Assembly: GCA_028554795.2 (NCBI GenBank)
Contig: CM068835.1
Coordinates: 34,442,901-34,506,900 of the forward strand
Length of the DNA stretch: 64,000 nt
Direction: 5' to 3'
Origin: Sinohyriopsis cumingii
Lineage: Eukaryota; Mollusca; Bivalvia; Unionida; Unionidae
Shown: piece by piece, positions 883 through 17,090 of the stretch
How the letters are laid out: the number at the start of each line of letters is the position of its first letter
Numbering within the stretch: position 1 is the first letter of the stretch
Translations under genes and position numbers: made by a program
The notes under the pieces: generated by a model
The model's input: the letters and a program-made list of their open reading frames with translations, nothing else
Databases searched by the model: none
What the model was told of the DNA's origin: nothing

Positions 883-1590
883 ATGGAAGGACGAAAACTA
901 GCTTTAGTGCCTTACAAACGATGGATGGAATACCATCGGTGGCAAGAACAACGCACCCCGCATTTACCTCCCAATCCCAATTTGAGCGAGATGTCCCAGT
1001 TACAACACGAATTGCAATCCTTGATGGATCGCCAAGATTTGTCCGAAACAGAAAAATCGCAAAAGTACGGTCAACTCTTGCAAAGACTGCAACTCTTTCA
1101 CCAGAAAGCTTTAGACGAAACAGCTTTACCCACTCTAAAAGATTTTAAGACCTTGATGAAAAGTCCAGCACCATCATCATCATTACCCCCACCACCACTT
1201 CCATCCGCAAGGGTCACCAGAGATGCTACCCCACAAAGACCTGAGGAAGAAGAGATGCGCGAAGTGTTTCAAACACCGTCAGCAGCTCCCATTTCGAGTA
1301 AGATTGCAGCATCCTTGTTGACCCCGTCCCCCACACCCCAACGAGAAGAAATGAAAGCTTGGGTTAAAAAGATGATGTCCACGCCTCCTTCGACAGAAGC
1401 GAAAAAGAAAGAAAGGAAACCAGAAGCGAAAAAAGAAAAGAAAACCAAAGCCATTCCATTGCCACCTCCACCTCCACCACCACTACCTTCGACTTCTACT
1501 CCCGTAGCCCATCGGACACGTAAATCCGTTTCCAAACCACCCTTTCGACCCACCCAAAGTAGCATCACCGAAGAGTGGGTGACTTATTAA
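883..1590 (+). CDS. Proline-rich Maverick protein of unknown function
   Basis: A 235-residue ORF starting at ATG 883 (MEGRKLALVP). Residues about 30-85 are predicted helical and Gln/Leu-rich, with EKSQKYGQLLQRLQLF, a pattern I associate with a recurrent but unnamed Maverick protein placed just upstream of the integrase. The middle is Pro/Ser-rich and Lys/Glu-rich, with a run of eight prolines near residue 200. The tail ends in an acidic-aromatic EEWVTY. No catalytic motif is visible. It could be a virion scaffold or a DNA-packaging accessory protein; this is inference from position only. Confidence 0.6.
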   Translation: MEGRKLALVPYKRWMEYHRWQEQRTPHLPPNPNLSEMSQLQHELQSLMDRQDLSETEKSQKYGQLLQRLQLFHQKALDETALPTLKDFKTLMKSPAPSSSLPPPPLPSARVTRDATPQRPEEEEMREVFQTPSAAPISSKIAASLLTPSPTPQREEMKAWVKKMMSTPPSTEAKKKERKPEAKKEKKTKAIPLPPPPPPPLPSTSTPVAHRTRKSVSKPPFRPTQSSITEEWVTY

Positions 1591-1616
1591 CACACCAACA
1601 CACAAAAAATAAAAAA

Positions 1617-2366
1617 ATGGAAAAAGTCTTAGCCAGCATTTACTACGATCCCTCGCATCCTGCAGGTTACGCAGGAGTTCAAAAATTGTATCGTGCTGCC
1701 AAAACGCGACTGAAAAGTCTCCGTTTACCTCAAGTGCAACGATGGTTACAAGAACAAGCTACCTACACTTTACACAAACCCATTCGACGCAAGTTTGCCA
1801 GAAGTCGCACCCGAGTGGAAGGCATCGATCATCAATGGCAAGCCGATTTAGCCGATGTCTCTCATTTGGCCAGCTACAATCGTGGCTACAAATATTTGTT
1901 TTGTGTCATCGACGTCTTTTCCAAATTTGCCTGGGTCGTGCCCTTGACTTCCAAATCCAGCAGCGAGTTAGTGCGAGCCCTGCAACGGGTGTTGAAACAA
2001 AGCGGTCGTCGCCCTCTTCGATGGCAAACGGACAAAGGCACCGAATTTCTGAACCAAGCTTTCCAAAAAGAATTAAAGAAACGTGACATTCATTTCTTTA
2101 CCACCGAGAATCCCGAAACCAAAGCCAGCATCGTGGAACGTTTTCAACGCACTTTGAAAGAACGCATGTGGAAATATTTTACGCATCACCACACTCTGAA
2201 GTACATCGACATCTTACCGCACTTGGTGCAAGCGTACAACCAATCTTACCATCGAAGCATCGGACGTGCCCCGCAAGACGTGACTCCCGACAACGAAGTG
2301 TTGGTGTTTGAGCGCCTGTTCGGACGTCCCCGACGAGGGCTGTCCCCAAGAAAAGTGGAGAGTTGA
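1617..2366 (+). CDS. Maverick integrase (rve, DDE family), catalytic part
   Basis: Retroviral-type integrase core of 249 residues from ATG 1617; the upstream in-frame GTG at 1575 overlaps the previous gene and is rejected. The catalytic acidic triad is present: Asp in WQADLADV, Asp in QTDKGTEF, and Glu in the segment KASIVERFQRTLKERMW. The N-terminal sequence YYDPSHPAGYAGVQKLY and the later AYNQSYHRSIG are typical of Maverick integrases. The enzyme would insert the element into host chromosomes. The frame ends at a TGA at 2364, whereas the expected C-terminal SH3-like and chromodomain part continues in the next frame from about 2340. The break is therefore a real frameshift, a sequencing error or programmed slippage. 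Confidence 0.9.
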   Translation: MEKVLASIYYDPSHPAGYAGVQKLYRAAKTRLKSLRLPQVQRWLQEQATYTLHKPIRRKFARSRTRVEGIDHQWQADLADVSHLASYNRGYKYLFCVIDVFSKFAWVVPLTSKSSSELVRALQRVLKQSGRRPLRWQTDKGTEFLNQAFQKELKKRDIHFFTTENPETKASIVERFQRTLKERMWKYFTHHHTLKYIDILPHLVQAYNQSYHRSIGRAPQDVTPDNEVLVFERLFGRPRRGLSPRKVES

Positions 2367-2728
2367 CCGTAGGAGATTGGGTGCGCATTGGCAAAACCAA
2401 ACGCACTTTCGACAAAGGTTACTTACCTAACTGGACGACCGAATTGTTTCGCGTCACTGGACGAGTACATGGCCGTCATCCTGCCGTCTATAAATTGGAA
2501 GACATGAACGGAGAAGTACTCAAAGGAACGTTTTATTTGCCCGAGTTACAACGTGTCACCAAAAAAGAAGACGACGTGTACGACATCGAAAGCATTCTCG
2601 AACGCAGAACCCGTAAAGTGGGCAAACAACGTGTCAAAGAAGTCAAAGTACGTTGGAAAGGATATCCACCCAGTTTCGATTCTTGGATCGACGCTTCGCA
2701 AGTCATCGACTATAAAAAGAAGAAGTGA
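2340..2728 (+). CDS. Integrase C-terminal part with chromodomain (frame-shifted from the catalytic part)
   Basis: This frame continues the integrase after the break: LTVGDWVRIGKTKRTFDKGY is the DNA-binding SH3-like segment usual in these integrases. It is followed by a chromodomain (VYDIESILERR, then VRWKGYPPSFDSW). Chromodomains on integrases bind modified histone tails and can steer insertion. The reading frame overlaps the end of the catalytic frame, so the two parts are best read as one gene with a frame break between about 2320 and 2363. The TTG at 2363 is not a believable start. Downstream, the membrane-protein gene begins within a few bases. Confidence 0.8.
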
Positions 2729-2733
2729 CCATC

Positions 2734-3156
2734 ATGCCCTTTCACACAGCAGACGCAGCTACTACGTCGACCACTCCTCCTTCACCCAGTTCTTCTGTGC
2801 AAGATTTACAAAAACAACCCTTGTGGGTGTGGTGTGGAGAACGTGTGCCTAAAACGCAAATCGTCTTTTTCTGCCAAATCTTCGTGGTGTATTGTGTCAT
2901 CGGGGCAGCCATCGCCAATTTGAGTTTGCAACAAGGAGACAAACAATTGTGGACCATTTTATTGAGCAGTTGCATCGGTTACCTGCTTCCCAATCCCTCC
3001 CTGAAATTCTCCTCAAACGGGAACGTTGTGTCCAGTGCCAGTGTCAGTGCCAGTCACCACTCCAACAACCACAACCAGAACCCCATTTTGGGCGGAGACA
3101 CGCCTCTGACATCCAGTAATATCCCCTCGGACAGCCACAGAACTCTGGAATTATGA
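2734..3156 (+). CDS. Maverick two-pass membrane protein
   Basis: The start is taken at ATG 2734 (PFHTADAATT), because the in-frame codon at 2725 is a GTG. The protein has a Ser/Thr/Pro-rich N terminus, a short polar segment, and two hydrophobic stretches: QIVFFCQIFVVYCVIGAAI and LWTILLSSCIGYLLP. The motif YLLPNPSLK follows directly. This two-segment arrangement ending in LLPNPSLK recurs beside Maverick capsid genes; its role is unknown, and a virion or host-membrane protein is plausible. The stop overlaps the start of the next gene by an ATGA, so expression of the pair may be linked. Confidence 0.6.
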   Translation: MPFHTADAATTSTTPPSPSSSVQDLQKQPLWVWCGERVPKTQIVFFCQIFVVYCVIGAAIANLSLQQGDKQLWTILLSSCIGYLLPNPSLKFSSNGNVVSSASVSASHHSNNHNQNPILGGDTPLTSSNIPSDSHRTLEL

Positions 3157-4088
3157 GTCACCAAAACCAATTTTACTTAACCTTACCCAGTGACAGTTCC
3201 ATGGAGGTGTTTCAAAACAACACGTTGTGCTGTTACACGGCCAAATTACCTCAAGCCATCCAGTTAGATCACGAAGCCCATTGGGAAGTGGCTTTAGTAG
3301 AAATGATTCACCCGACCCAAGTCCACAATATCACTGCCCAGCAAAATTGGTTTAAGGTGGAAGTTCATGACAAACAATTGCAAGAGGAGTTGGATAAGAT
3401 TGGCACATCTACCAATAAAACCTATGATGACAAAACTAAAACGACCACCTACAACTTGTTCATTCTCCCAGGCTATTATTTCAGTGGTCATCATTTGGTC
3501 AGCGCCATAGCCTCCAGGTTTAATGGCGTGTTCCATAAAGCTTTGAGTAATGTCCAAAAAAGTGTCACCCTGGAATACCACAAAATAGCTCGTCGCTTTC
3601 TGATGAAATTTTCTGAGGGGTCCAAAAAATTCATGTCTTTCTTATTTTGTCCTGAATTGTTTGACATATTGGGCGGTGACACGGAGATGAGAATGGTCAT
3701 GATGAAGAAAAACGAATTGCCAGTCATTTCCGACAACGATATTTTTGCGAGGTATTTTCGTTTCCCGGTAGAACTGAACCAAGGACTGAATTTGATCTTT
3801 GTGTATTCCGATGTGGTGGAATACAACGTGGTGGGACACACCTCCGTGCCGTTACTGCGTGTCATTCCTTTCAAAGTGGATTCTGCCACAAACGCTGACG
3901 AGGAAGGTGGAAACACTTATCACGTTCACCGCGAATTTGTCCATCCTCACTATTTGCCGGTCAGCAAGTCGTATTTGGACACGGTCAACATTACTATAAA
4001 AGGAGATTTGGGACAAAATATTCCATTCACCAAAGGAAAAGTCACGGTGAAACTCCATTTTCGAAAACGGTTCTCTCACGACTCGTAA
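3153..4088 (+). CDS. Maverick minor capsid (penton-like) protein
   Basis: A 311-residue protein starting MSHQNQFYLTLPSD. Position and N-terminal pattern (LPSDSSMEVFQNNTLCCYTAKLPQ, then WEVALVEMIHP) match the penton/minor capsid protein of Mavericks, a single-jelly-roll protein expected at the five-fold vertices. Later there is a Thr/Tyr-rich beta segment (TTTYNLFILPGYYFSGHHLV). A closing strand region is rich in Val/Lys (GKVTVKLHFRKR). No catalytic residues are expected. It lies directly between the membrane protein (4-base overlap) and the pVI-like gene (3-base gap), as in other elements of the group. Assignment rests on family pattern, not on a database search. Confidence 0.75.
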   Translation: MSHQNQFYLTLPSDSSMEVFQNNTLCCYTAKLPQAIQLDHEAHWEVALVEMIHPTQVHNITAQQNWFKVEVHDKQLQEELDKIGTSTNKTYDDKTKTTTYNLFILPGYYFSGHHLVSAIASRFNGVFHKALSNVQKSVTLEYHKIARRFLMKFSEGSKKFMSFLFCPELFDILGGDTEMRMVMMKKNELPVISDNDIFARYFRFPVELNQGLNLIFVYSDVVEYNVVGHTSVPLLRVIPFKVDSATNADEEGGNTYHVHREFVHPHYLPVSKSYLDTVNITIKGDLGQNIPFTKGKVTVKLHFRKRFSHDS

Positions 4089-4091
4089 GTC

Positions 4092-4508
4092 ATGTATCCA
4101 GTGTACCAAGGGGTGGCTCGACAGCGAGGACACGGTTTAGGAGACATGTTAAAATCGGCCTTTCGTTCGGTGGCCCCGGTGTTGAAACCGATGGTAACAC
4201 GAGGATTGCACGCCTTGAAAGATGCGGCACTGACACAAGGCAAAGAATTTCTCCAAAATGTCATCATCGACAAACAAAACCCTAAAGAAGCCTTCATGAG
4301 GGCAGGCAAAAATGTCTTGCTGCAAACGGGTAAAGACATTTTAGGCCGACGAGACACACCTATAAATGCCCTGCACGCTACCGAATCAGGCATTCAGCAA
4401 GGACAAGGCAGAAAGAGACGACGCAGAAAACACCCTTTCACCAGACTTCAAGCGAGAAAGGCCAAGAAAAGAAGAACCGTTCGAGACTTAGACGTTTTCG
4501 ATTATTGA
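4092..4508 (+). CDS. Maverick pVI-like basic capsid-associated protein
   Basis: A 138-residue ORF. It opens with a Gly/His motif (VARQRGHGLGDMLKSAFRS) that forms an amphipathic helix, followed by a hydrophobic/basic segment and a helical middle. The C terminus is extremely basic (GQGRKRRRRKHPF, then KAKKRR), ending in an acidic-aromatic DLDVFDY. This order, with an N-terminal amphipathic helix then a basic nucleic-acid-binding tail, is the one seen in the protein next to the major capsid gene in Mavericks and compared with adenovirus pVI. The same tail survives as a fragment in the decayed element at 27.93-28.05 kb, confirming it as a conserved gene. Role in capsid assembly or membrane escape is inferred. 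Confidence 0.65.
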   Translation: MYPVYQGVARQRGHGLGDMLKSAFRSVAPVLKPMVTRGLHALKDAALTQGKEFLQNVIIDKQNPKEAFMRAGKNVLLQTGKDILGRRDTPINALHATESGIQQGQGRKRRRRKHPFTRLQARKAKKRRTVRDLDVFDY

Positions 4509-4527
4509 GGAAGAACAAAAAAAAAAA

Positions 4528-5853
4528 ATGATGCACCGAGAGTCTTGTGCTTGTTCCAAGACGGAACTGGATATGTTTGCCATGCCCCCCACCATGATGA
4601 CGATGCAAGAATCCCAGTGGGTGGAATTTCACCCGGTCTCCTCATTGACCGATTCCGCTCCCATCGAGTTTGAAATCAAAGGACAGCCCGAAGATTACAT
4701 CGATCTGAATAGCAGTTACCTGTATTTGAAAGTCAAAGTGATCAAAACTGACAACACCAATCCTGGAGCCAATGATAGGGTAGCGCCCGTCAACAATTTC
4801 ATGCATTCCTTGTTCAGCGAAGTGGACTTGTACTTGAATAACAAACTGGTCAGTAGCAGCATGGATACTTACCCGTATCGCGCCTACTTGGAAAATCTCT
4901 TGACGTACGGAAAAGAAGCCAAAAACACTCATCTGGATGCTTGCGTGGTATGGAAACCTGACACGGCAGGTGAGAACACGTTTAGCGATACAGCCCTGAC
5001 AGCAGATGACAATCTTCACAATGTGGGGTTTAACACACGTAGAACTAAAATTCTGCAAGGGCGAAGTTTAGAACTGATGGATCGTTTGCATTTGGACATG
5101 TGGTTACAAGAAAAGTATTTGCTGAACGGTGTGGATATCCGCCTGAGACTGAATCGTAGCAGTGCCGCTTTCCATTTGATGACCCATGCCAATGAATACA
5201 AAACTGTTATCCAAGAAGCCAAGCTCTACGTGCGTCGCGTAGAAGTGTTACCTAAAGTGGGAAACGATATCAGTCAAACGTTAAGCAGAACAACTGCCAA
5301 GTATCCCATACGACGCGTAGAAGTGAAAACGTTCACCATTCCTGCTGGACAGCGATCCATGATCGAAGATCATCTGTTCCAAGGACAGTTACCCAAGCGT
5401 TTGATTGTTGGTATCGTCAAGAATACAGCCTTCAACGGAGTCCACAACGAAAATCCTTTTGAGTTTAAGCATTACAATGTGTCCAAGATCGAAGTCAGTC
5501 GCGATGGCAAGACCTTGTGTACCCGACCTTTCGAGCCTAACTTTGCCCAGAAGAATTACTTGAGATCGTACTTGTCCCTGTACGAAGCCACCGGTCAGTT
5601 AGGAACCAACACCAGTCACGGCATTACGTACGACGATTATGACGGAGGCTATGCTTTGTGGGCTTTCGATTTCACTCCAGACCAAGGCAGCGACGAGGGA
5701 CATTTCCACCCTATAAAATCTGGCCAGATTCGAGTGGAAATTCAGTTTGCGAGTGCACTGGAAGCAGGGAACACAGTGAACGTCATCCTGTATGCAGAAT
5801 TTGATAATACGATAGAAATCAACAGTTTAAGAGAAGTCATCCTAGATTACTAG
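4528..5853 (+). CDS. Maverick major capsid protein (double jelly-roll)
   Basis: A 441-residue protein starting with two methionines (MMHRESCACSKTELDMF) followed by AMPPTMMTMQESQWVEFHP. This N terminus is the hallmark of the Maverick/adintovirus major capsid protein, the family often annotated in invertebrates as F54H12.2-like. Further family segments are visible: YIDLNSSYLYLKVKV, a DLYLNNKLVSSS strand-turn, and a GVDIRLRLNRS core strand. The protein would form the hexon-like trimers of the capsid shell. The full length and open frame suggest it could still be made. A start-to-near-end decayed copy lies at 28.06-29.2 kb. Confidence 0.92.
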   Translation: MMHRESCACSKTELDMFAMPPTMMTMQESQWVEFHPVSSLTDSAPIEFEIKGQPEDYIDLNSSYLYLKVKVIKTDNTNPGANDRVAPVNNFMHSLFSEVDLYLNNKLVSSSMDTYPYRAYLENLLTYGKEAKNTHLDACVVWKPDTAGENTFSDTALTADDNLHNVGFNTRRTKILQGRSLELMDRLHLDMWLQEKYLLNGVDIRLRLNRSSAAFHLMTHANEYKTVIQEAKLYVRRVEVLPKVGNDISQTLSRTTAKYPIRRVEVKTFTIPAGQRSMIEDHLFQGQLPKRLIVGIVKNTAFNGVHNENPFEFKHYNVSKIEVSRDGKTLCTRPFEPNFAQKNYLRSYLSLYEATGQLGTNTSHGITYDDYDGGYALWAFDFTPDQGSDEGHFHPIKSGQIRVEIQFASALEAGNTVNVILYAEFDNTIEINSLREVILDY

Positions 5854-5858
5854 AAGCC

Positions 5859-6344
5859 ATGGAAGACTGTTATCCCTCTTTACCTAGTGGAGAAACTTTG
5901 GAGATGGAATGTAAGGAGACCGTGGAAAAAGAAGAAGTGATCATGATGAAATCGAGATGGCCAGAACAAGAAGCCCATTTAGTCTCCTGTTTTGCCAAAC
6001 ACTTGGTCGACAAAATGACGGAATTGATCAAGAAAAATTGTTATGGATGTCAAAACGATCATCCCAGTCAAATTCAACACGATAAATGCCTAATGTTAAG
6101 TCAAGAAGAAAAATTGGACGAGTATCTGGACGAAGCTTGGAGTCTCATCTCGAACAAAGACGTGTTGCACCAGTGGTATAAAGACTTGCGTGAACATTCT
6201 TGTCCAGCATTAACCACTCAAGAGATCCATCGTATCGAAGCTCTCCTGAATCAGAGTGAGGAAACAGAACGAATAACCGTTTATTCGTCAGACATTTTCA
6301 AGCAAAAAGTCAGGATCGAATTGACGACTTATTATTACCTGTGA
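5859..6344 (+). CDS. Conserved Maverick Cys/His protein of unknown function
   Basis: A 161-residue ORF starting six bases after the capsid stop. The acidic N terminus is followed by a helical segment and the motif NCYGCQNDHPSQIQHDKC (residues about 60-77), with three Cys and two His that could bind zinc. The same C-x2-C...SQ..HD.C pattern is familiar to me from proteins beside Maverick capsid genes, but no function is established that I know of. The remaining part is helical with Trp residues. Being sandwiched between the capsid and protease genes suggests a late or virion role; this is inference. Confidence 0.6.
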   Translation: MEDCYPSLPSGETLEMECKETVEKEEVIMMKSRWPEQEAHLVSCFAKHLVDKMTELIKKNCYGCQNDHPSQIQHDKCLMLSQEEKLDEYLDEAWSLISNKDVLHQWYKDLREHSCPALTTQEIHRIEALLNQSEETERITVYSSDIFKQKVRIELTTYYYL

Positions 6345-6365
6345 AGAAGAAAAAAACACAAAACA

Positions 6366-6926
6366 ATGGATACCTGGGAACTGTATTACCTTTTGAACCA
6401 CAGTTCGTATACGGCTTCTTGGAATCCTGTCGTCTGTGCTAAAGATGAACTCCCTCATCGCAAACCTAAAGACCATCAAGCTTACGTGATCAACACGGAC
6501 GACAGTCATCTCCCAGGAACCCACTGGGTAGCCGTCTACTTTCCTCAAGAAGGCTGTGTGGAATATTTCGATTCGTACGGATTGCCCCCTTTGGAAGACG
6601 ATATCATCGACTTTATGAGAAGAAATGCTCAAACCACCCGATTCAATAACGTGAAATTACAAGGCACAGATTCCTTGGTGTGTGGACAGTACTGTGTGTA
6701 TTTCCTGCATCATCGCAGCCTGGGCTATTCCTTAGAACATTTAGTGACTCATTTCGATCCTCGTTCTTCTGCTAGAAACGATGTGAAAGTAGATCGATGG
6801 TTTTGTGACCATTATGCTTATCTTTTGTCTCAAGCTAGGAAACGTAGTGTCCATCAATGGCCTAATGATTTCCAACAGTGGAAATCACAATTTCATTCAC
6901 AACGTTGTCAGCCTTGTTTAAAGTAG
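6366..6926 (+). CDS. Maverick adenain-like cysteine protease
   Basis: A 186-residue protein, close in length to adenovirus protease (about 200). The catalytic set is in the expected order: His in GTHWVAVYF, Asp in EYFDSYGLPP, Gln in VKLQGTDS, and Cys in LVCGQYCVYF. The C48/C5 clan uses this fold for maturation cleavage of capsid and core proteins. Most likely it processes the pX- and pVI-like proteins encoded upstream. It starts at ATG 6366 after an A-rich leader and is the last core gene. About 100 bases after the stop there is an AATAAA, so this mRNA probably ends by normal polyadenylation, unlike the accessory genes that follow. Confidence 0.92.
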   Translation: MDTWELYYLLNHSSYTASWNPVVCAKDELPHRKPKDHQAYVINTDDSHLPGTHWVAVYFPQEGCVEYFDSYGLPPLEDDIIDFMRRNAQTTRFNNVKLQGTDSLVCGQYCVYFLHHRSLGYSLEHLVTHFDPRSSARNDVKVDRWFCDHYAYLLSQARKRSVHQWPNDFQQWKSQFHSQRCQPCLK

Positions 6927-7031
6927 ATTGTATTTGAAGAAAAAAATGATTGTGATTTGAAAAAAATTGTTTGATGTTATAGTGTTGGATTATTGTTAAA
7001 AATGTTGTTGTTTAGTGTTAAGTGATTTTTG

Positions 7032-7037
7032 AATAAA
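7032..7037 (+). terminator. Polyadenylation signal after the protease gene
   Basis: AATAAA lies 106 bases after the protease stop in a T/G-rich stretch typical of a cleavage region. It contrasts with the stem-loop ends of the three following genes. Confidence 0.5.
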
Positions 7038-7164
7038 AAATGTTGTGTTTAGAAAAAAATGCCTTTGTCTTTTGTTTAGCTATAAGAATGTTGGATTGAT
7101 GCTCTTTCATTTCTTACTATCCCTCTCATGACACTCACTGAACGTTGCGGCTCGAAAACCGTGT

Positions 7165-7206
7165 GGGGGATGTTTTCCTTCACGTCCGCGCTTTAACTTT
7201 AAGAAC
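7165..7206 (+). promoter_or_regulatory. Accessory-gene promoter box, copy 1
   Basis: GGGGGATG followed by TTTTCCTTCACGTCCGCGC and CTTTAA. The same box stands before the other two accessory genes at the same distance (about 90 bases from box to ATG). The position used by TATAAA in the other two copies reads TTTAAGAA here, a weakened TATA. Confidence 0.65.
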
Positions 7207-7256
7207 CGGGTTGTTCCCAGTCTAGCCATCCATTGTCGACTCATCCTCCTAAGAAG

Positions 7257-7610
7257 ATGTGCTCCAAACTAGCTAAGCTCAACGAAGCCTACGTGAATCT
7301 GCATAGGGTCAGACACAGTCTGATACCGAAACCAGAAGAAATAGAGAACGTGAGAATGTTAAAAATCACTGAAGACCTGATAGAAGAGCTCTTCAGAGAA
7401 GAAATGAACAGGGAGAAAGAAGAATGGACAGAGAAGTACAGACTTCAGAGACAGCAGCAACAGCAGCAACAACAGCAGCAGCAACCTGAAGCTGACAGAG
7501 GCTTTGTCGATTGTCGTATCGACACCAAAGAATTCTTCTTCTCTTTCCGAAGAAGCAGACCTATCGCCAGAAAGTCTATCCTCAGAGGACATCGCATTCT
7601 TAGAAACTAA
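7257..7610 (+). CDS. Accessory coiled-coil protein 1 (tandem family)
   Basis: A 117-residue protein from ATG 7257 (MCSKLAKLNEAYVNL); the earlier in-frame TTG is not used. The N-terminal heptad-like Leu pattern (KLAKLNEAYVNLHRVRHSLI) matches the equivalent part of the next two genes (RLEKLLELHVHLEYARRIL and KIQTLQDVLDNLGIMEQML), so they are paralogues. The middle is Glu/Arg-rich, followed by a 12-residue glutamine run and a basic tail. The function is unknown; small charged helical proteins at a Maverick end may act on host regulation. The gene has its own promoter box and a histone-like stem-loop 30 bases after the stop. Confidence 0.6.
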   Translation: MCSKLAKLNEAYVNLHRVRHSLIPKPEEIENVRMLKITEDLIEELFREEMNREKEEWTEKYRLQRQQQQQQQQQQQPEADRGFVDCRIDTKEFFFSFRRSRPIARKSILRGHRILRN

Positions 7611-7639
7611 AAAAGAATGCCATAGCAAAACAAAAAAAC

Positions 7640-7680
7640 AGCCCTTTTTAGGGCTACCCAATACTCTAGAAAAGAAATAA
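7640..7680 (+). terminator. Histone-like 3' stem-loop with downstream purine element, copy 1
   Basis: Stem AGCCCT, loop TTTT, stem AGGGCT, followed by ACCCA (7640-7660). The A-rich 5' flank, 6-bp stem, 4-base loop and ACCCA tail fit the replication-dependent histone mRNA end. The consensus differs mainly in the stem bases and in the loop, which is TTTC there. About 10 bases further, CTAGAAAAGAAATA resembles a histone downstream element for U7 binding. Confidence 0.7.
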
Positions 7681-8007
7681 CGATCGATTTGCCAATGTGT
7701 GTAGGTAGAGTAGTGTGAAAATAAACACTAACTCTTTCTTAAAACAATGTGAGGGTATGTGTTTGTGTGTTTGTGTGATTGTGTTTGTAAGTGATAAAGT
7801 AGGTTGGTGTGGATAGTAGATTAAAATGATGTTTGTTTTTTTGGGCTGTTTGAGGTGTATATTTTGGGTTAGATTGGATTGCTTTGCGTATGTGGATAGT
7901 CTATTGAAGTGATGGGTAGCATAAAAAGTGAGTGAGTGTTTCTTTTAGGTCCGCGCGTTGTTGTTTTTTTTGGTCATGATCTAGGTAAGATGAATTTTAT
8001 GTTATTA
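7681..8007 (+). other. Spacer between accessory genes 1 and 2
   Basis: G/T-rich non-coding DNA. Its first part (from AATGTGTGTAGGTAGAGTAG) is nearly repeated after accessory gene 2 (8546 onward), showing that the whole gene cassette was duplicated. A partial promoter box (GGTCCGCGCGTTG at 7948) and the segment TCATGATCTAGGTAAGAT lie just before the full box, as they also do before gene 3. Confidence 0.6.
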
Positions 8008-8046
8008 GGGGGATGTTTTCCTTCACGTCCGCGCTTTCAGTATAAA
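8008..8046 (+). promoter_or_regulatory. Accessory-gene promoter box with TATA box, copy 2
   Basis: GGGGGATG, then TTTTCCTTCACGTCCGCGC, then CTTTCAG and TATAAA at 8041-8046. The ATG of gene 2 is 54 bases after the TATA box, a normal RNA polymerase II layout. Confidence 0.7.
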
Positions 8047-8099
8047 TTGAAACTCGTTCGGCAGTCCAGCTACCCTTGTTGATTGATCAACACCAAAAA

Positions 8100-8462
8100 A
8101 TGAACACGAGACTTGAGAAACTGTTGGAGCTTCATGTGCATCTGGAATATGCCAGGCGCATATTAAATGAACTGGCCGCGGAAGCCATTGTCGAGGAGGG
8201 AAGGATAAGAGAGGAGGAGAGAAGAAACAAAGAAGAGGAGGAGAGAAGATATAAAGAAGAAGAAGAAAGAAGATATAAAGAGGAAAGAAGAAACAAAGAA
8301 GAGGAAGAGGAAAAGGAGAGAAGAAATTTCAAAATCCCAGAGAGCGAAAATTGGGATTCTGAAGCGACATATCCTGCCTCTGCTCTCTGCCCCCAAAAGG
8401 TAAAAAGTAACTGGGGGATAAGATGTGTATGTGGCGCCAGGCCTGGAAGGTGCCACCATTAA
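8100..8462 (+). CDS. Accessory coiled-coil protein 2 (tandem family)
   Basis: A 120-residue protein from ATG 8100 (MNTRLEKLLELHVHL), preferred over the in-frame TTG at 8076. An N-terminal Leu-patterned helix is followed by a long Glu/Arg/Lys region with imperfect 8-residue repeats (KEEEERRY, KEEERRN), almost certainly one extended charged helix. The last 40 residues are different, with a Cys-containing basic end (RCVCGARPGRC). It is a paralogue of the flanking genes by its N terminus, promoter and 3' end. The repeated codons suggest expansion by slippage. The function is unknown. Confidence 0.6.
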   Translation: MNTRLEKLLELHVHLEYARRILNELAAEAIVEEGRIREEERRNKEEEERRYKEEEERRYKEERRNKEEEEEKERRNFKIPESENWDSEATYPASALCPQKVKSNWGIRCVCGARPGRCHH

Positions 8463-8491
8463 CCAGGTGTCCATGAAGTTCCAAACAAAAC

Positions 8492-8530
8492 AGCCCTTTT
8501 CAGGGCTACCCAATACTCTAGAAAAGAAAT
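8492..8530 (+). terminator. Histone-like 3' stem-loop with downstream purine element, copy 2
   Basis: AGCCCT, loop TTTC, AGGGCT, then ACCCA (8492-8512). Loop and 3' flank are identical to the histone consensus, and the 5' flank is A-rich (CCAAACAAAAC). CTAGAAAAGAAATA follows. It lies 30 bases after the stop of accessory gene 2. Confidence 0.75.
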
Positions 8531-8743
8531 AACGATCGATTAGCCAATGTGTGTAGGTAGAGTAGTGTGAATATAAACACTAACTCTTTATTAATAGTGG
8601 AAGTGTATGTGATTGTCTGTTTGTGTTTGTGTTAGTAACTAATAAAGTAAGTTTGCGTGAATAGTAGATTATGGGTTTCTTTATTGTTTCTTAGCGTATG
8701 TGGAGAGTATAGTTTGGGTTATATTATACGAAATGAGAAAAGT
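8531..8743 (+). other. Spacer between accessory genes 2 and 3
   Basis: G/T-rich DNA matching the spacer after gene 1 in its first half (GTGTAGGTAGAGTAGTGTGA, then ATAAACACTAACTCTTT). No ORF or RNA gene is visible. Confidence 0.55.
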
Positions 8744-8850
8744 GGGGATGTTTTCCTTCACGTCCGCGCGATGTTAGTCATGATCTAGGTAAGATCAAAT
8801 TTATGTTATTAGGGGGATGTTTTCCTTCACGTACGCGCTTTCACTATAAG
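8744..8850 (+). promoter_or_regulatory. Double accessory-gene promoter box, copies 3 and 4
   Basis: The box occurs twice here: at 8744-8770 (no TATA directly after) and at 8812-8841 (with one change, CACGTACGCGC), followed by TATAAG at 8845-8850. Between them lies TCATGATCTAGGTAAGATC, also present upstream of gene 2. The ATG of gene 3 is 50 bases after the TATA site. Confidence 0.65.
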
Positions 8851-8899
8851 AACCCATAGTGTTCGTTGTTCAAACCATTCTGCAAAGAATAAAAAGAAG

Positions 8900-9289
8900 A
8901 TGGCGTCAAACCAAATCGACAAAATACAAACCTTGCAAGACGTTTTAGACAACTTAGGAATAATGGAACAGATGCTATTAAGACTGGTTGAAGACCATTA
9001 TTCCTATAGTCCCCATCGTGTGAAGATGGAAATTAATAACTTAAGGAAAGCAAAGGACAAGATTAGTGGTGTCATGAAAGAGATCAAGGAGGAGAAGGAG
9101 GATGAAGAGGAAAGAATAAGAATACGCAATTGGAACGAAAAAATTGAAAAAGAAGAAGAAAATGAAAAGAAGAAGAAAGAAGAGGAGGAAGAGAAGAAAA
9201 AGAAAGAAGAGGAGGAGAAGAAAAAAAAGAAAGAGAAGAAGAGTGTAGGAGATAAAATAAGAACTTGGTGGAGGAAAAGAAGAAATTAG
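8900..9289 (+). CDS. Accessory coiled-coil protein 3 (tandem family)
   Basis: A 129-residue protein starting MASNQIDKIQTLQDVL. The N-terminal helix and the later NNLRKAKDKI segment are followed by about 50 residues of Glu/Lys repeats and a basic Trp-containing tail (TWWRKRR). The decayed element 2 has a clear relative at 29.35 kb (MASNRLEKL..., NLRKAKERLKEL), so this gene type is conserved at the right end of different elements. The stop is only about 20 bases from a perfect histone-like stem-loop. The function is unknown; the Lys/Glu-rich helix could bind nucleic acid or chromatin, which is speculation. Confidence 0.65.
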   Translation: MASNQIDKIQTLQDVLDNLGIMEQMLLRLVEDHYSYSPHRVKMEINNLRKAKDKISGVMKEIKEEKEDEEERIRIRNWNEKIEKEEENEKKKKEEEEEKKKKEEEEKKKKKEKKSVGDKIRTWWRKRRN

Positions 9290-9303
9290 AAGAAGAAGAA
9301 AAC

Positions 9304-9348
9304 CCAAAGGCCCTTTTCAGGGCCAGCCATATTTCTCGAAAAGAGATA
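9304..9348 (+). terminator. Histone-like 3' stem-loop with downstream purine element, copy 3
   Basis: The best match to the histone mRNA end in the window. CCAAA is followed by stem GGCCCT, loop TTTC, stem AGGGCC (9309-9324) and AGCCA. The consensus differs by one stem pair and one flank base. CTCGAAAAGAGATAG follows at about 9334, in the position of a histone downstream element. Confidence 0.8.
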
Positions 9349-9402
9349 GTCTTTGAATTGCCTACCCTTTTTTTAAAAAAAATTTTTTTTAAAAAAAAAT
9401 CC

Positions 9403-9608
9403 CATGTTCCATTCCCCTTGTCCCTAAACAAGCCCAAACTATTCCCCATGTTAAATTCCCCTTGTCCGTAGAGTGACCCACGATTTATCGCCATGTTAAT
9501 TCCCCTTGTCCGTAATCTGACCCACGATTTTTCGCCATGTTAAATTTCCATTGTCCGTAATCTAACCCAGGGGGGGTCTGTAATGCTAATTCCCATTGTC
9601 CGTAAACT
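9403..9608 (+). repeat. Terminal tandem units of Maverick 1 (right end)
   Basis: About four units of 44-47 bases built on CCATGTTAAATTCCCCTTG followed by TCCGTAATCTGACCCACGATTT. Related units in the opposite orientation form the left ends near 14.1 and 23.3 kb (GACAAGGGGAATTCAAC). The right terminus is placed after CCGTAAACT; read inward this begins AGT, as expected for Maverick ends. Confidence 0.65.
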
Positions 9609-9659
9609 ACCCCCCTTAACTACTTACCTGGGTCTGCACTGCCCTCGTAACGCTAGAGG

Positions 9660-11440
9660 ACACGTCCATAGATTTTATTTTACCCACGTCTTCAGAGCTG
9701 TGTCGTAGCACGTAAGTTTTCTCTTGCAATACAATTTTGTCTAAAGACTATCTAGCCTTGTCATTATCCACGAAAGACGTTGTTATAACTCTTAGAATAT
9801 ACCATTAGCAATAACGGTGGAAATCAGTTGAAATTCAAAAGATCGTCATAAGCAATATATAATTTATTTTAATTAATTGTAGGTATTGTCTTTACTTTGT
9901 TACAGATTATGTCAATATGGCACATTCAATATTTTTTATGCTTGTATGCCTTAGAATCTAACCGATGTGGGAGACGAAGCGACGATGACAATCCCAATTA
10001 CAAAACGTATCACCCTTTATACCGTATTCTCTCAAATAAATTTTAGTAAAAAGGTGAAACCTAAATGTGTACATATACTAACCATATAGATAGCCTACAA
10101 AATTCCATTCCTATAAGCAATGTGGTTGAAGAAGCAATGGCAAATTAAAATCCCCTCTTTTGAGACACAACTGTAAGAACTTTATCCATAAATAACCATT
10201 AAGTAACAAGGAAAGCTTTGTTGTGCATCTATCATCCACGCAAACCACATATCTGGCATATAGTTACAATACAATTTCTAAAGCACTATAGAAGAAGAAG
10301 AAATAACAAATGAGTTCCTTTAATGCGTACGTTTTGGACAATTTGCAATTCATTATCTCCACACTCTCCAAGGGAAAAGTATTGCGTATTTTCACCATCA
10401 AACAAGAACCCTACAAAGTTTCACTGAAATATTTTAATAGGAGTGGGAGTAAGAGCAGATGTAACATTTGTCACTGATTGTGAGATCCACGGGCGGATGA
10501 ACAAACTACAATGTACACGATATTCCTGAATTGCAGCGATAATGGAGAAAGAATGAAAAAGTAAAGATTTACTAATTCTCTTTCCCGACATCCGTTCAAG
10601 AAATATCCTCTAAGATGGACCACACTAAGAAAGCGAAAACTTTCTGCGAATCTATACCAAACACATATCTAGCCGACAAAGGTGCAATCCTCTCAACAAT
10701 GTCGGAAAAGAATCAATGACCAAAAAATTGCCCAAAATACATTCGTAGAATATTTCTCAAAATAAAATAGCCTCAAAAATGTGCCAGTGGAAACAGACAA
10801 AACATTATTTCGTATTTATACCAACTACTTGTCTAACGCACTCAGTCTGAATAATATCTTCAGAGTAGTGTGAACGGAGAAGCAATGACTTACTGAATTT
10901 CCCAAGTACACATTTTTCTGGAACATTGTCAAACAAAAATGGACCAGATGGAAAAAGAGAAACCTGATATAAGACATCTACACCAAACATATATCTCACT
11001 ATAAACTTCTACAAAATCCTCTACCAAATTAATGGCAAGAAGTGTTGACAACCTGAGTTATCAAAAAGAAAACTATTTACGACAAATTTTCAAGAACATT
11101 TTCAAAGCATTAAGCAGAAAAGGGAACACTCTTATTTTGCATCTCGATGAACATGAAATCTAGCTCTCAAAGTCCCTGTCCAAAAGAAAACTAAGCAGAG
11201 TTGGAGGAGAAACAATGACAGACGGAAAGACTGATTTAAGATGCCATCGACAAATCCCCGTTTTTACACAAGTACGGAGAAAATTGCTAAGAATATAAAT
11301 TACGTTCATTAAGCTCTGAATAACTCGTAACCTCAAGGCACATAATTAATTTAATTGTGGGATTGGAAGTCCGAATCTACAAGGATAAACATGAAAGTTC
11401 AATTCGTATAGCATTGTTTTCAGAACTGTAAATCATACAT
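9660..11440. other. AT-rich host DNA, no gene seen
   Basis: No ORF longer than about 60 codons and no recognisable repeat, RNA or exon. It is ordinary AT-rich flanking DNA to the right of Maverick 1. Confidence 0.5.
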
Positions 11441-11442
11441 AC

Positions 11443-11684
<242 letters not shown>

Positions 11685-13012
11685 AACTGTACGATATATT
11701 AAGATAGTATATAGATCATTATATAACCACCCCTTAACATACTGGTTATATTGATATTTCTTATCAACGTCACGTGGCGTCTGGGTTTGACTGGGTTTTA
11801 GATTTACATGCTGATTACCCGGTTCTGTAAATAAGTTTATAGAAATCATGTTCCTGGTTCCGTTATGATGAAAGGCTACATTACAAATAGTTTAATAATT
11901 ATGAACATTAAACAAGTGAATAAGAATAAAGCGTCTCCTCCTCTTCGTCATCTTCAATCTATATTTCAATATTATTTACACAAATTTTATGAAATGATGT
12001 GATTCCCAGTATCAAGGTAAACATATTCAACATAGAAAGAGAGATAAACTATTAAAATTGACTTGAAGTTAATTCCCATTTGGTTTGTCTGCAACAGATA
12101 AGAAGCCTCATTTGCTTTTCTGTAGCTTGTTAGACTGCATTTAAATAGTATTCCTCAAAGATTTGTACTAGGGCTTATTCAAACAAGGTATCGTTTGGGG
12201 GATAAAGGAATGCAAAATGATTAGTCAAATCTAATTACTTTCGCGCATTATTGCTTGTGAATGCTATTGGTACAATATTTTGTCAGGCTGTCAGTAATCC
12301 AAGGATTAACACGGCTTTTCTCACCAAAAGAAATGCATATTTTTGGAGCATTGTTTGCTGTTTGAACCTGATATAGTGGGACGGAAAGTCATTTAACATG
12401 TGTATCTCGATTGTTTTATTAAAATTGCAACATACTTTATACCGATTTAAAACTTTAGAAAAACGTATGTAGAATACAGCGTACGAGAACTTCAAGCAAT
12501 TTATTCGAAACTGAAGCAAAACGATGGGATCATTATTAGTAACAGCATGTGGCACACAAGACCGTTCCAGTTGTTAATAATATATTACAAATTCAGCGAC
12601 AGTCCTTACCATTATGGCTTTAGTCTTCTATTTCGATGTAATCACATGGCCATAATGCTTTCAATATTTAATTATCTATTCCGTGTGACTCTTCTGAACT
12701 TCATTTTGTTTCTTTCTATCTTCATTCTGCTCCTACACCTCATCATCATTATTGTTATTATTATTATTATTATCATTATTAGTAATATCATTATTGGTAG
12801 TGGAGGTGGTGAAACAGCATTAGTGGTAATATTAATAGTACTCGTAACCATCGTGGTAGAAGTAATAGTGGTTACACCAGCAATCTATATACCTTTTGTT
12901 TTAGAACAAATATATAAAAGAGAGGTACTTTATACAAACTAGCTTAATGGTTTCTTGATATCAGTGTCTCTCCCCAAATCTTTTTCAACATTTATAGCAA
13001 TACTAGACTGGA

Positions 13013-13811: not shown

Positions 13812-14486
13812 GGTTTACAAATATAAGAATTATGTATAATATTCACTTTGATTGCTTACACAACTTCCGGGGTCCGTTTGATGAATACGACCAGTGCTAA
13901 TCACAGTGTTAAAAAAACAGCCCGATTTATGAAATATCTCTAGACAGGGTGTATTGCTAATAAAACTATATGCGCTAAGAGGCTATATGTATATGAAGTG
14001 TGGATTGCTCTTGATAAGCGCGCTTATCTCACGTTAGATAATAGTAGTATATGGGGACAATATAGCGACAATGGGATTGGAATGTTACAATAGTGACTTT
14101 GCCCTATGGCGACAAGGGGAATTCAACAAGGGTGGGACTATATAGCGACAAGGGAAATTGAACATAGCGACAAGGGATTGAGACTGTCTAGTGACAAGGG
14201 GAATTTGAGATAGGTGACGTCACCGTACTGTAGTCTGGGGAAACAATAGTAACAATGTTGCATGAGGCTGACCACACTCGGGCGGAACAGTGTTTCAATG
14301 GGTTGACCTGAATACGCGCTAATCTAGGGATACATACAACAAAGAAATAGCTATATAGATATGGTTAGAGACATAGACATATTCAAGCACAGATTTATCG
14401 ACATAAATCTATCAAACAAACAACTATACAACCGACTAAAATAATTTGTATGCGAGAGAATATTCATCCTTTCGAGATAGTTGAGT

Positions 14487-14502
14487 GGCCCAAAGAAGGG
14501 CC
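14487..14502 (-). terminator. Decayed histone-like stem-loop at a Maverick left end
   Basis: Read on the minus strand: CCAAA, then GGCCCTTCTTTGGGCC, then ACTCA, with CTCGAAAGGATG behind it. The GGCCC/GGGCC stem is kept, but the loop has changed. It sits downstream of the leftward gene relic, mirroring the right-end stem-loops. Confidence 0.5.
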
Positions 14503-14529
14503 TTTGGTTTTTAGTTTTGTTAACACCAT

Positions 14530-14805
14530 TCAGTTAACATGGAGTGCAACGCACGGGTTTTCTTCTCTTCCTCAAACTTGGACTGACATCTGGACCGTAG
14601 ATTAGGACTCGCTTCAGACAACCTTGCCTCTCCACATGTATTCTTTGTTTCCAAAGGGCCGTATCAGTGATCTTCGTCATAACCCATTATGATTCGACAT
14701 ACATGGGATAGCCCGGGTCGAAGATAGGAGGGTAGACGATTCTACGTTGGTCCACATCTTGTGACGAGAACATGTGAATGGAATGAGGTGATCCGCGGTT
14801 ATTTA
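14530..14805 (-). pseudogene. Relic of the short leftward Maverick left-end gene
   Basis: On the minus strand, TATAAATA (near 14,800) stands about 30 bases before an ATG that opens MWTNVESSTLLSS. The frame soon breaks. Later pieces (ARLSEASPNLRSRC, FEEEKKTRAL) match the intact 63-residue version in element 2. No domain is recognised. Confidence 0.5.
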
Positions 14806-15129
14806 TATTTTAAGAACGAATCGAAACGGATTGACTTCGTTCACCAATCCTAACACTCGTTACAAAGTTCAGTCACAGTGCGGAGTCAGTCTTCTAACCC
14901 GAAGAGAGATACATGTGATGTCACCCATCTCGTCGAAAAGACACTACTTAATGTTTGCCAAAATCAAATAAAACTCAAATTCTTTTTTTTTTCATCATGT
15001 CCGTGTGTGAGTGCGTGAGTGTAGGTCCTTATTATAAAAGTAATAACCAAGATACACTTACGTTTTTATTTTTGGTATATTCTCTGGTACAAATTACATC
15101 CAAATTTCAGAACACATCACTTTATAAAG

Positions 15130-15407
15130 TTTATTTTCTTCTTCTTTTCCTTTCACTCTCTCCTTTTTTAAAATGTCTTTACATTCACAATTGTTTCTTT
15201 TACCTACTCTTCTTCCTAACTTTCTTCTCGTCTTGTTTTCTTCTCTTTTATCACGGGTATGGGTTCTTTTTTTCCCCTCTGGATGGTGCCAACTCCTCCT
15301 GTATGACAGTCCTCCCTCCTACTCCTGTTGTTTCTTATGTCGGTTCTCTTTTTTCTTATGGCAGTCTGAAGACCAACGCCCTTCCTCCTGACAATGATAA
15401 CAGACAT
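15130..15407 (-). other. Purine-rich minus-strand stretch, possible relic of a Lys/Glu-rich left-end gene
   Basis: The plus strand is strongly pyrimidine-rich (TTCTTCTTTTCCTTTCACTC). Read on the minus strand it would encode Lys/Arg/Glu-rich peptide like the accessory genes at the right end. The minus-strand frame at 15,216-15,407 is short and the match is only in composition. The equivalent stretch is at 24.28-24.5 kb. The plus-strand ORFs here (Phe/Leu/Ser-rich) look like shadows. Confidence 0.25.
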
Positions 15408-15459
15408 GCTGACTTTTACCCTTTTAATGCCTGTCTTGCTTTGACGTTGTAAATCAGAA

Positions 15460-17090
15460 GTAAATATATCGTATCGTCACAACATCATAACAGCATATTG
15501 TATAATTCGTTGCTTCCAAATGCAAAACTTCTATAAAATAATATTTGTTTAAACTACATACAAACAAACAAACATACGTACGTACGTACTTACATACATA
15601 CATACATACATACATATCTATATTTTGAATAACCTTTGATATATGTCGCTATCTATATTATATGCTACTATTTTATGCGTTTAATTTACATTTGCAGAAT
15701 CGTTCAGTATTCTACGATACTGGACACCTTGATATTGCACGCACATTCACAACACGTGTGAATAAAAATAGTATAGTGTATTAGTAACTATTTCGCAAAC
15801 AAACTATGTACACTCATGTAGCAGACTTTAGGTTTTAATTTATTAGATTTGTTTGTGGATGAATTAGAACAGCTTTTTCGTGTATTTGAAAGTAGAGATG
15901 ATAAAGTGAACAATGTGTACGAGTTTACCGAGTCACAAATTAAACTTTCAAACAAGGAAATGAATGAACGTGATTTTCGCAATATCCACAACAGCCATGA
16001 GAGACACAGTATTGAAAATACCATTCTGTTCAATCTAATAGTTATTTAAGAGAAATGTTCGGAACATTTCGTCAATGGAATGGTTCAGACTATGAGCAGT
16101 AATCTCTTGGATATATAAAGTATATAAAATAGCATCGAAAATGACACTGAGGGCATGGGCTATCGTATGTCAATCCCATAGTACCATTTACTAAGATAAA
16201 GTACTAAATTCGTAAGGAAAATGCGACTGAAGGTTTTATTGGAAAGTAAGAGATCCAGCTGGTTTGTACTTTTGCGCGTTAACTTTATTGATACAGTGTT
16301 TCGGATTTAGGCTAGAGATAGACGCCGTACATGATACAGATCATAACATGGCGAAGGAAGCATGCAAGTGACCAGGCATAAGTATCTCTTCTTTAGTTGG
16401 CAATAAGAATGGCAAAAACATATACTTGCATTTTTCATCATGAATATCCTCAAAATGAAATGTCTATGCTCTGCAAATCCGAATTCCATGAGCTTCATTA
16501 CGCATTTCGAAATTGTAATGTAATTTCGACTATATTCCAAAATCAATATTATTCTCCTTACTGCGCTCAAAATAGAATGAACATTATATTCCATAGCGTT
16601 TTTTTGATAATTACCATTGAAAGAGTTCATATTATGATTCCAAAAATTCAATGACGGAATATGAATACACGTGCAGATGAGTCAAGATGCCTCACTCGCT
16701 GGTCAGATCAGATATATTTCATGTGAGATTGACACAAATAAAGTCAATACATACTCATGAAATTTATTACAATCGACACAAATATCAAAATCCTTTTACT
16801 CCAGACCATAAGCAAAAGATGTTCCAATGCGCATTCATTCACACTATAACTCTAAATTTCCATTTTAAGTACAACAAAACGACAATACCCTTTGAAAGTG
16901 ATGTCGAGAACGAGACTAAGTTCAAACTTCACTGGGCGGAGTTATGTTGGCATTAATATTGGTGTTGTGTACCGATGAATCTGCTGTTGTGTATTAATTT
17001 TGAAATAGACCATAAATTCAATTACTTTTGTTCCTTGTAGTGTATTGTTATTTATATATCTAAGCTTTCGGTAGAATAAGAAAATGAGTA
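15460..17090. other. AT-rich host DNA, no gene seen
   Basis: Contains a short ACGT/CATA microsatellite at about 15,580-15,615. Small ORFs of 60-115 codons on both strands overlap each other and show no domain or splice context. Nothing else is recognised. Confidence 0.5.

Follow-up and report, generated by a model that had tools for sequence, protein, structure and literature searches.

To our knowledge, the histone 3' end is held to be reserved for the mRNAs of replication-dependent histone genes. The purine-rich element downstream of the hairpin is required for cleavage but dispensable for SLBP binding, and some histone genes are known to have dual-mode 3' ends. Among viruses, the H4 of bracoviruses is an example of a viral histone, and the mRNAs of iridoviruses end in a hairpin and lack poly(A). 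The latter resemble the transcripts proposed here in being viral mRNAs without poly(A), but their hairpin is not known to be the histone stem-loop/U7 signal. Viral histones (reviewed in PMC9145170) also represent viruses meeting histone biology; there the protein was taken over, whereas the element described here carries the regulatory signals. Stem-loop, SLBP, polyadenyl, and S phase are all absent as terms from the main text of that review. In the accessible part of a paper on adintoviruses and their kin (PMC11071296), S phase and polyadenylation are not mentioned and the two mentions of "histone" concern histone-like proteins. A literature search for the histone stem-loop together with Mavericks returned no paper, and polinton or Maverick never occurred together with histone terms among the matches listed. 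This agrees with the preliminary description of the locus, which knew of no such account for Mavericks. As far as literature searches show, the element would be the first mobile element found to have taken over the whole expression programme of histone genes.

The window, i.e., the whole stretch of DNA analyzed, comprises 64,000 nucleotides from the bivalve Sinohyriopsis cumingii (contig CM068835.1). Judged by its genes, the host-resident element is a Maverick, an adintovirus-like endogenous virus. Like Mavericks/Polintons and adintoviruses in general it encodes an rve integrase, a double-jelly-roll capsid protein and a protease, the latter being weakly adenain-like (best PDB match, E 0.00026; Pfam score below the cut-off) (Table 1). 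The capsid protein (MCP) has at least 95 matches in the same genome, and relatives were found in Mercenaria, Ostrea, and Crassostrea. There were no matches to MCP in a phage collection, and none were confirmed in viral contigs searched with MCP, the MCP profile, and the accessory-1 profile. Homology to copies L071-L080 ceases at the probable right end in most of them, with earlier ends representing broken alignments only.

Table 1. Features of the Maverick and its accessory cassettes (window coordinates).
Feature	Position	Strand	Basis or remark
Retrovirus-type integrase (rve core)	1617..2366	+	Pfam match, 1.5e-14
Major capsid protein (MCP), predicted double jelly-roll fold	4528..5853	+	Predicted structure and capsid matches
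Adenain-like cysteine protease, weak	6366..6926	+	Peptidase_C5 16.2 bits, cut-off 21.3
Histone-type promoter box 1 (GGGATGTTTTCCTTCACGTCCGCGC)	7167..7191	+	TTTAAG 6 nt past box; precedes accessory gene 1
Accessory gene 1, 117 aa (MCSKLAKLNEAY...)	7257..7610	+	ORF; two helices and beta hairpin predicted
Histone-type stem-loop 1, AGCCCT-TTTT-AGGGCT	7640..7655	+	Rfam Histone3 29.9 bits; host-trained model 53.6 bits
Purine-rich downstream element CTAGAAAAGA	7666..7675	+	Same letters past host H3, H4, H2B, H1
21-nt stretch identical to host histone H4 promoter (TTTCTTTTAGGTCCGCGCGTT)	7939..7959	+	42.1 bits
Histone-type promoter box 2	8010..8034	+	TATAAA 6 nt downstream
Accessory gene 2, 120 aa (MNTRLEKLLELHVHLEYAR...; C-terminal CVCGARPGRCHH)	8100..8462	+	ORF
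Histone-type stem-loop 2, AGCCCT-TTTC-AGGGCT	8492..8507	+	Rfam Histone3 31.0 bits; host-trained model 53.6 bits
Purine-rich downstream element CTAGAAAAGA	8518..8527	+	3' of stem-loop 2
Promoter box 3a, upstream copy	8745..8769	+	No TATA-like motif in following 20 nt
Promoter box 3b, 1 mismatch	8814..8838	+	TATAA 6 nt downstream
Accessory gene 3, 129 aa (MASNQIDKIQTLQDVL...)	8900..9289	+	ORF; different ORF in 4/10 other copies
Histone-type stem-loop 3, GGCCCT-TTTC-AGGGCC	9309..9324	+	Rfam Histone3 35.6 bits; host-trained model 46.9 bits
Purine-rich downstream element CTCGAAAAGA	9335..9344	+	3' of stem-loop 3
Probable right end of element	9624..9628	.	Homology with copies L071-L080 ceases

Stem-loops of the histone-mRNA type had been reported after three accessory genes, and they were found there, with the stem starting 29, 29, and 19 nt past the stop for stem-loops 1, 2, and 3, respectively. 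They have the traits of the Histone 3' UTR stem-loop (RF00032), i.e., a stem of six base pairs whose second pair is G-C, a 4-nt U-rich loop, an A-rich 5' flank and an AC-rich 3' flank. When positions 1-12000 were scanned, the three stem-loops (Histone3 E-values of 3e-5, 1.2e-5, and 2.2e-7) were the top three by E-value among eight Rfam matches to any family, and all three lay on the sense strand shortly past an accessory stop. The remaining five matches had E-values from 1.1 to 9.5 and fell 23-69 bits below their own cut-offs. The Histone3 scores are above background, with stem-loop 3 alone exceeding the gathering score of 34 and the other two falling below it. A weak Rfam match to sbrA on the minus strand overlies stem-loop 1.

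The histone unit of the host (H3, H4, H2B, H2A, and H1; L070) carries the same type of hairpin followed by a downstream element, and its five genes scored 35.0-39.4 bits under Rfam Histone3. We built a second covariance model solely from these five 3' ends. It recovered stem-loops 1-3 in a 292-kb search with E-values, which are rough, of 3.9e-11, 3.9e-11, and 2.6e-9, and it matched 30/30 cassettes in ten other copies picked by hand from the capsid matches. Capsid-centred loci (1.5 kb on each side) contained no hairpin matching this model in any of 30 copies. The claim that core genes are without the hairpin holds for these loci and for the part of the element inside the window, the left part lying outside it. 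Each of the 13 host and element sequences chosen for comparison forms the full set of six stem pairs, two of which are changed on both sides; two such changes were reached by 20 of 500 shuffles and full pairing by none. A chance hairpin was rejected on the basis of the Histone3 scan, the host-trained model and the comparison with Markov controls.

Host and Maverick also have the GAAAAGA element in common, and its spacing of 10 nt from the stem equals that of host H3, H4, and H2B. The offset in the host is 13 (H3, H4, and H2B) or 14 (H2A and H1). Among 43 element hairpins, for which AAAAG within a set window was a scan criterion, a GAAAAG-type element was found at offset 13 in 38 and at offset 12 in 5. 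All histone-mRNA-type parts listed in the preliminary description (stem, loop, both flanks, and GAAAAGA) were thereby confirmed, and the host histone genes carry the same ones.

The promoter half of the cassettes adds to what had been observed before. A box common to host histone promoters was found upstream of a TATA-like motif, deviating by one nucleotide from the H2B box and by two from the H1 box over 23 nt; over 25 nt, box 1 has two mismatches to the H1 promoter box. In the host it is weak and reversed at H2A (five mismatches), short at H4 and was not found before H3. We take the box core CACGTCCGCG to resemble an HINFP site. Twenty Markov versions of the window contained no match to the box at up to 5 mismatches of 23, and the box was present 1307-1335 nt past MCP in 30/30 MCP loci, including the copy described here. 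When element and host histone sequences were compared (9.7 kb against 10 kb), nine matches surpassed the best of 50 Markov controls, and these were seven promoter boxes and two hairpins, nothing else. The stretch identical to the H4 promoter scored above the best control (32.2 bits). A 16-nt match within the H3 coding region tied the best Markov control.

Because a promoter box and a TATA-like motif precede every accessory gene and a histone-type hairpin ends it, the accessory genes are, on their sequence, cassettes of a histone-type promoter, an uninterrupted ORF and a histone-type 3' end. The distance from box start to ATG is 86-90 nt, with the TATA-like motif 6 nt past the box. A Pfam scan of the three ORFs gave no family above cut-off and no histone among the weak matches listed, and a captured histone ORF was ruled out as the identity of the accessory genes. 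The predicted structure of accessory gene 1 has a pTM of 0.35. Where the third ORF was exchanged in other copies, box and hairpin were retained around the swap. The cassettes thus resemble the replication-dependent histone genes of the host in stem, UUUN loop, A-rich 5' flank, AC-rich 3' flank, GAAAAGA at the spacing of H3, H4, and H2B, H2B/H1-type box, TATA-like motif and short uninterrupted ORF. They differ from them in that their ORFs match no histone family and sit in a mobile element along with which they are dispersed, and in that stems 1 and 2 open with an A-U pair, which none of the five host hairpins has.

The cis-elements are almost certainly the histone-type signals that they resemble, and at this level the earlier interpretation is supported; we are less confident that 3' ends are formed by them alone. 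The signals would imply an S-phase, non-polyadenylated expression of the accessory genes, and the promoter likeness to host histone genes lends independent support to the S-phase part. As a whole, the locus is best explained by accessory genes that are very likely built as replication-dependent histone-type transcription units. A host factor reading the box would then switch them on together with the histone genes in S phase, SLBP would bind the hairpin of the mRNA and U7 snRNP would pair with the GAAAAGA element. Cleavage a few nucleotides past the stem would yield accessory mRNAs without poly(A), which would be translated in S phase and decay once replication stops. Capsid and protease genes are without these signals. 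The accessory (perhaps early) proteins would in this way be coupled to host and viral DNA replication. It seems reasonably probable that the virus lineage turned its accessory region into modular pseudo-histone cassettes into which different genes are swapped. Histone locus body, SLBP, and U7 snRNP would thereby serve to express proteins other than histones during S phase, from transcripts lacking poly(A).

A milder form of this explanation, compatible with it, is that the 3' ends are dual-mode, with hairpin and downstream element used in dividing cells and AATAAA giving polyadenylated mRNA in non-dividing ones; we give it slightly less than an even chance. The preliminary description had the protease gene using AATAAA instead of the hairpin. 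An AATAAA is indeed present at 7032-7037, 105 nt past the protease stop, but the motif also occurs at 7720 and 8641, 64 and 133 nt past stems 1 and 2, so that poly(A) signals separate the gene classes imperfectly. Because AATAAA lies near many element hairpins, poly(A) or dual 3' ends are possible; 1/5 host histone genes likewise has it within 150 nt past the stem. Among A-type hairpins it is found within 150 nt past the stem in 15/24, in 12 of them at +64, and human H2AC18 has overlapping histone and poly(A) signals according to the accessible part of PMC9756948. Against a dual mode, G-type hairpins have AATAAA within this distance in only 2/19, and in the third cassette the first AATAAA is at 10035, beyond the right end of the element.

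The remaining explanations deny the signals their present role in 3'-end formation. The identity to the H4 promoter and the near-identity to the H2B and H1 boxes could suggest that the accessory region was captured from host histone genes along with flanking signals that are now passive and functionless. We consider this quite unlikely, as no match besides box and hairpin exceeds the controls, the ORFs match no Pfam family above cut-off, the signals outlast the ORF swap and stem pairing survives changes on both sides. Moreover, neither the loop nor the AAA preceding the stem varies among the 19 G-type hairpins, whereas the outer flanks do, although constancy in this set is partly built in since the scan itself required the paired columns and AAAAG. 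The hairpin could instead be an SLBP decoy, or a signal for cell-cycle-regulated translation or decay, which does not form 3' ends. The many copies indicated by the capsid matches could titrate SLBP if transcribed, but a cleavage-specific downstream element kept at host spacing and a promoter that agrees with host histone genes as well make this very unlikely. It is extremely unlikely that the hairpin acts at the DNA level, as an origin, packaging signal, or terminal repeat of the element, and looks like the histone hairpin by chance. The third hairpin lies some 300 nt short of the right end, but the other two are internal and follow one gene each, and in L002, L003, and L007 the two hairpins are on different strands, each matching the sense direction of the gene it belongs to. 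This orientation, together with the match to the downstream element and spacing of host histone genes, largely refutes a DNA-level signal.

Stem, loop, and downstream element all recur in related elements. A Histone3 scan of the same genome gave 75 scored places, all above the gathering cut-off. Eight of these were inspected along with the ten copies; five were the same box-ORF-hairpin cassette and three (L002, L003, and L007) belong to a second family with a divergent gene pair, each gene having a hairpin in its own sense direction. The box was not found in this second family. Searching prokaryote genome contigs with the MCP profile identified three Maverick pieces in MAGs (L081-L083) with an MCP 41-45% identical, and neither hairpin (host-trained model) nor box was found in any of them. 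One of these pieces stops soon past the protease and two appear decayed. Conservation of the hairpin in related elements thus holds for the cassettes of the ten copies but not for these distant pieces, and the histone-type cassette is not a general Maverick trait; histone-type promoters and 3' ends on accessory genes set the present element apart from them. Neither hairpin nor box patterns gave matches in viral contigs.

Viral genes that are not histone genes here carry a histone 3' end and the matching promoter box, and they do so in many copies. The cassettes represent natural test constructs, with histone box and hairpin separated from histone ORF and cluster, and suggest how an endogenous virus may bring its genes into step with S phase while encoding no switch of its own. 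Box and hairpin together could serve as a marker for related elements in other invertebrate genomes.

For the U7 snRNA of the host, Rfam RF00066 and pattern searches of its genome gave no convincing candidate. The RF00066 match (29.3 bits, E 0.27) was rejected as sub-threshold, and the same search gave matches in 6/14 prokaryote controls. An exact U7 pattern, which wrongly demanded at least 2 nt ahead of the Sm site, had no matches, while a looser one had 19 compared to 11 in the reversed control. Seven of the 19, chosen for a full AATTTGTCTAG, were rejected since none had a U7-like 3' stem or score. Two of the inspected matches resemble pieces of integrase genes.

The window element encodes an rve integrase, a weakly adenain-like protease and a capsid protein whose predicted model (mean pLDDT 69.6, pTM 0.76) matches those of adintovirus, adomavirus, virophage and large DNA viruses, and it is therefore a Maverick/adintovirus. 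Named relatives of the capsid protein (MCP) among the best 120 of 1399 were from Mercenaria, Ostrea, Crassostrea and Saccostrea, which points to a probable bivalve host. At the right end, homology between ten copies stops at about 9624-9628; the element's left part extends beyond the window. Five imperfect 44-45-nt subterminal repeats (9398-9614) lie ahead of this end, and similar stretches were seen in most of the eight best genome-wide Histone3 places (L001-L008). The accessory proteins are charged and had no Pfam family over the cut-off. Accessory 1 was mostly helical in its predicted model (pTM 0.35), and the protein collection contained nine relatives, all with uninformative names. As a guess, the accessory proteins may be early or replication-linked.

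The preliminary description placed a histone-type stem after each accessory stop codon, and covariance matches were found at all three. With Rfam Histone3 at E up to 10, positions 1-12000 gave three matches, which were the top three by E-value among eight matches to any Rfam family, although only the third was retained when the whole window was searched at the gathering score. A strict hairpin scan of positions 1-12000 recovered the same three hairpins and none on the minus strand.

Histone-type hairpins matched in the window (empty cells, no value reported)
Feature	Match	Strand	Stem start past stop (nt)	Rfam Histone3 (bits)	Host-trained model (bits)
Stem 1 (7640-7655), ORF 7257-7610	7635-7680	plus	29	29.9	53.6
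Stem 2 (8492-8507), ORF 8100-8462	8487-8532	plus	29	31.0	53.6
Stem 3 (9309-9324), ORF 8900-9289	9304-9349	plus	19	35.6	46.9
Further match	14466-14507	minus			36.4
Further match	23655-23696	minus			35.7
Further match	29739-29779	plus			27.3

In the host genome (2.9 Gb) the replication-dependent histone genes form tandem units of about 8.3 kb, as estimated from their spacing. The unit used here (L070) contains H3, H4, H2B, H2A and H1, and all five 3' ends scored 35.0-39.4 bits with Rfam Histone3. These genes end in GGCCCT-TTTN-AGGGCC 27-38 nt after the stop (GGTCCT/AGGACC in H1), with the downstream element CTAGAAAAGA, or CCCGAAAAGG in H2A. Stems 1 and 2 have the exact CTAGAAAAGA 10 nt past the stem, the same as H3, H4 and H2B, while stem 3 has CTCGAAAAGA at an equal distance. 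We selected 13 sequences from host and element, and all six base pairs form in every one of them; two pairs show changes on both sides, pair 1 being G-C or A-U and pair 3 being C-G or U-A. Among 500 shuffled controls full pairing never occurred, and two pairs changed on both sides in 20.

A covariance model built solely on the 3' ends of the five host genes was run on 53 sources (292 kb). With E-values of 1 or less it gave 53 matches, these E-values being rough owing to a short calibration. Ten other element copies (L071-L080), our pick from at least 95 capsid matches with 95-100% identity, had three matches apiece (30/30; 29/30 with the strict script), so that the hairpin recurs in related elements. 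Judged by these capsid matches, this is a large family of elements, and a young one. The eight best genome-wide places had 17 matches, including a weak one (15.9 bits). No match was found in the 30 capsid-centred loci (L009-L038) and none on the core genes seen, as the preliminary description had it for the latter. Locus L039 and three distant Maverick pieces (L081-L083) also had no match.

A strict scan of the loci found 43 element hairpins, 24 A-type and 19 G-type. It demanded pairing and a downstream AAAAG, and the constancy of those parts is therefore partly built in; six hairpins matched by the host-trained model failed it (one each in L001, L004, L007 and L079, two in L002). The AAA 5' of the stem and the loop were invariant in all 19 G-type hairpins and their outer flanks variable, while A-type hairpins are still similar over the entire region. 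Counting open frames of at least 60 codons, the stem started 13-56 nt past the closest stop in 40/43 hairpins and 86 nt past it in one. For the remaining two no such stop was found: the third frame of L008 continues through the hairpin and that of L076 terminates earlier. The third ORF type of the ten copies was MASN in six, MPAAS in three and MVAVS in one, with box and hairpin retained.

The promoter signals are an addition to the preliminary description. The box GGGATGTTTTCCTTCACGTCCGCGC is found at 7167, 8010, 8745 and, with one mismatch, 8814, and TATAA or TTTAAG follows 6 nt past those at 7167, 8010 and 8814. In the host unit it is present in the H2B (1 mismatch of 23) and H1 (2 mismatches) promoters, weak and reversed before H2A (5 mismatches), in a short form before H4, and not found before H3. 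A stretch of 21 nt (7939-7959) is identical to the host H4 promoter. When element and host unit were compared by blastn, nine matches (seven promoter boxes and two hairpins) exceeded 32.2 bits, the highest score among 50 Markov controls; three equalled that score, one being 16 nt within the H3 coding region. Twenty Markov versions of the window had no copy of the box, which was present once in each of 30 MCP loci (the window's own copy counted), 1307-1335 nt past the capsid gene. In this family, host-matched cis-signals are present on each accessory gene examined and on no core gene seen. CACGTCCGCG resembles what we take to be the HINFP site. According to PMC5706932, H4 promoters are bound by HiNF-P, which brings in NPAT and Pol II.

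A histone promoter factor would then direct S-phase transcription of the accessory genes, their transcripts would undergo SLBP/U7-dependent cleavage, and the mRNAs would be non-polyadenylated. Host U7 snRNA was not found when the genome was searched by Rfam model and sequence patterns. It is also quite possible, going by the motifs, that the accessory genes have dual 3' ends, histone-type and poly(A), as AATAAA was found within 150 nt past the stem in 15 of the 24 A-type hairpins; it was found in 2 of the 19 G-type hairpins and one of the five host histone genes. Human H2AC18 (PMC9756948) is a precedent for such dual ends. No earlier description of such Maverick signals was found in the literature searched, most subscription journals lying outside it.

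Genome-wide Histone3 scoring covered the best candidates. Among the matches listed, none of the 75 scored places lay in any listed histone cluster, and 69 scored 42.6-45.6 bits, exceeding all five L070 genes; as a control, 1 of 14 prokaryote genomes matched, under the cut-off. We examined the best eight of the 75 (3 kb each). Five (L001, L004, L005, L006 and L008) had the same box-ORF-hairpin cassettes as the window element, and L002, L003 and L007 represent a second family with other ORFs. The latter is counted as Maverick-like because L002 and L007 have the right-end repeats of the window element; no capsid gene was seen within the 3-kb pieces. All three have a divergent gene pair with one hairpin per gene, each in its own gene's sense, and lack the promoter box. 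CCAAT and TATA motifs lie between the divergent genes, and CCAAT motifs are also present in the host H3 promoter. Beside the pair in L003 lies an ORF (830-1189) that encodes two zinc knuckles of the CCHC type (CYICQKKGHWSSEC).

The three further window matches lie in apparently decayed relatives. Two belong to decayed relatives of the second family on the minus strand (14001-15900 and 23401-25100), in which an MWTTVESS-like gene remnant is followed by the hairpin, and this suggests that the 3' signal predates the present burst. Remnants similar to the zinc-knuckle ORF lie beside them. The third is in an older decayed Maverick piece on the plus strand (28801-29800), in which an apparent capsid remnant is followed by a box-like TTACGTCCGTG together with TATATAAAG, then by a broken ORF of the MASN type and the weaker hairpin.

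Viral contigs gave no confirmed relative of MCP or accessory 1 and no hairpin or box pattern. The distant pieces L081-L083 had neither hairpin nor box, which says little since L081 stops 0.8 kb past the protease and the capsid frames of L082 and L083 are broken. They come from prokaryote MAGs (a tubeworm symbiont, a Bathymodiolus symbiont and a Breoghania sp.), and these Maverick contigs are probably contaminating animal DNA. In L082, the piece from the mussel-symbiont MAG, a weak twister-P1 ribozyme match was seen downstream of the capsid gene at 11734-11798 (28.9 bits; gathering score 67.2).
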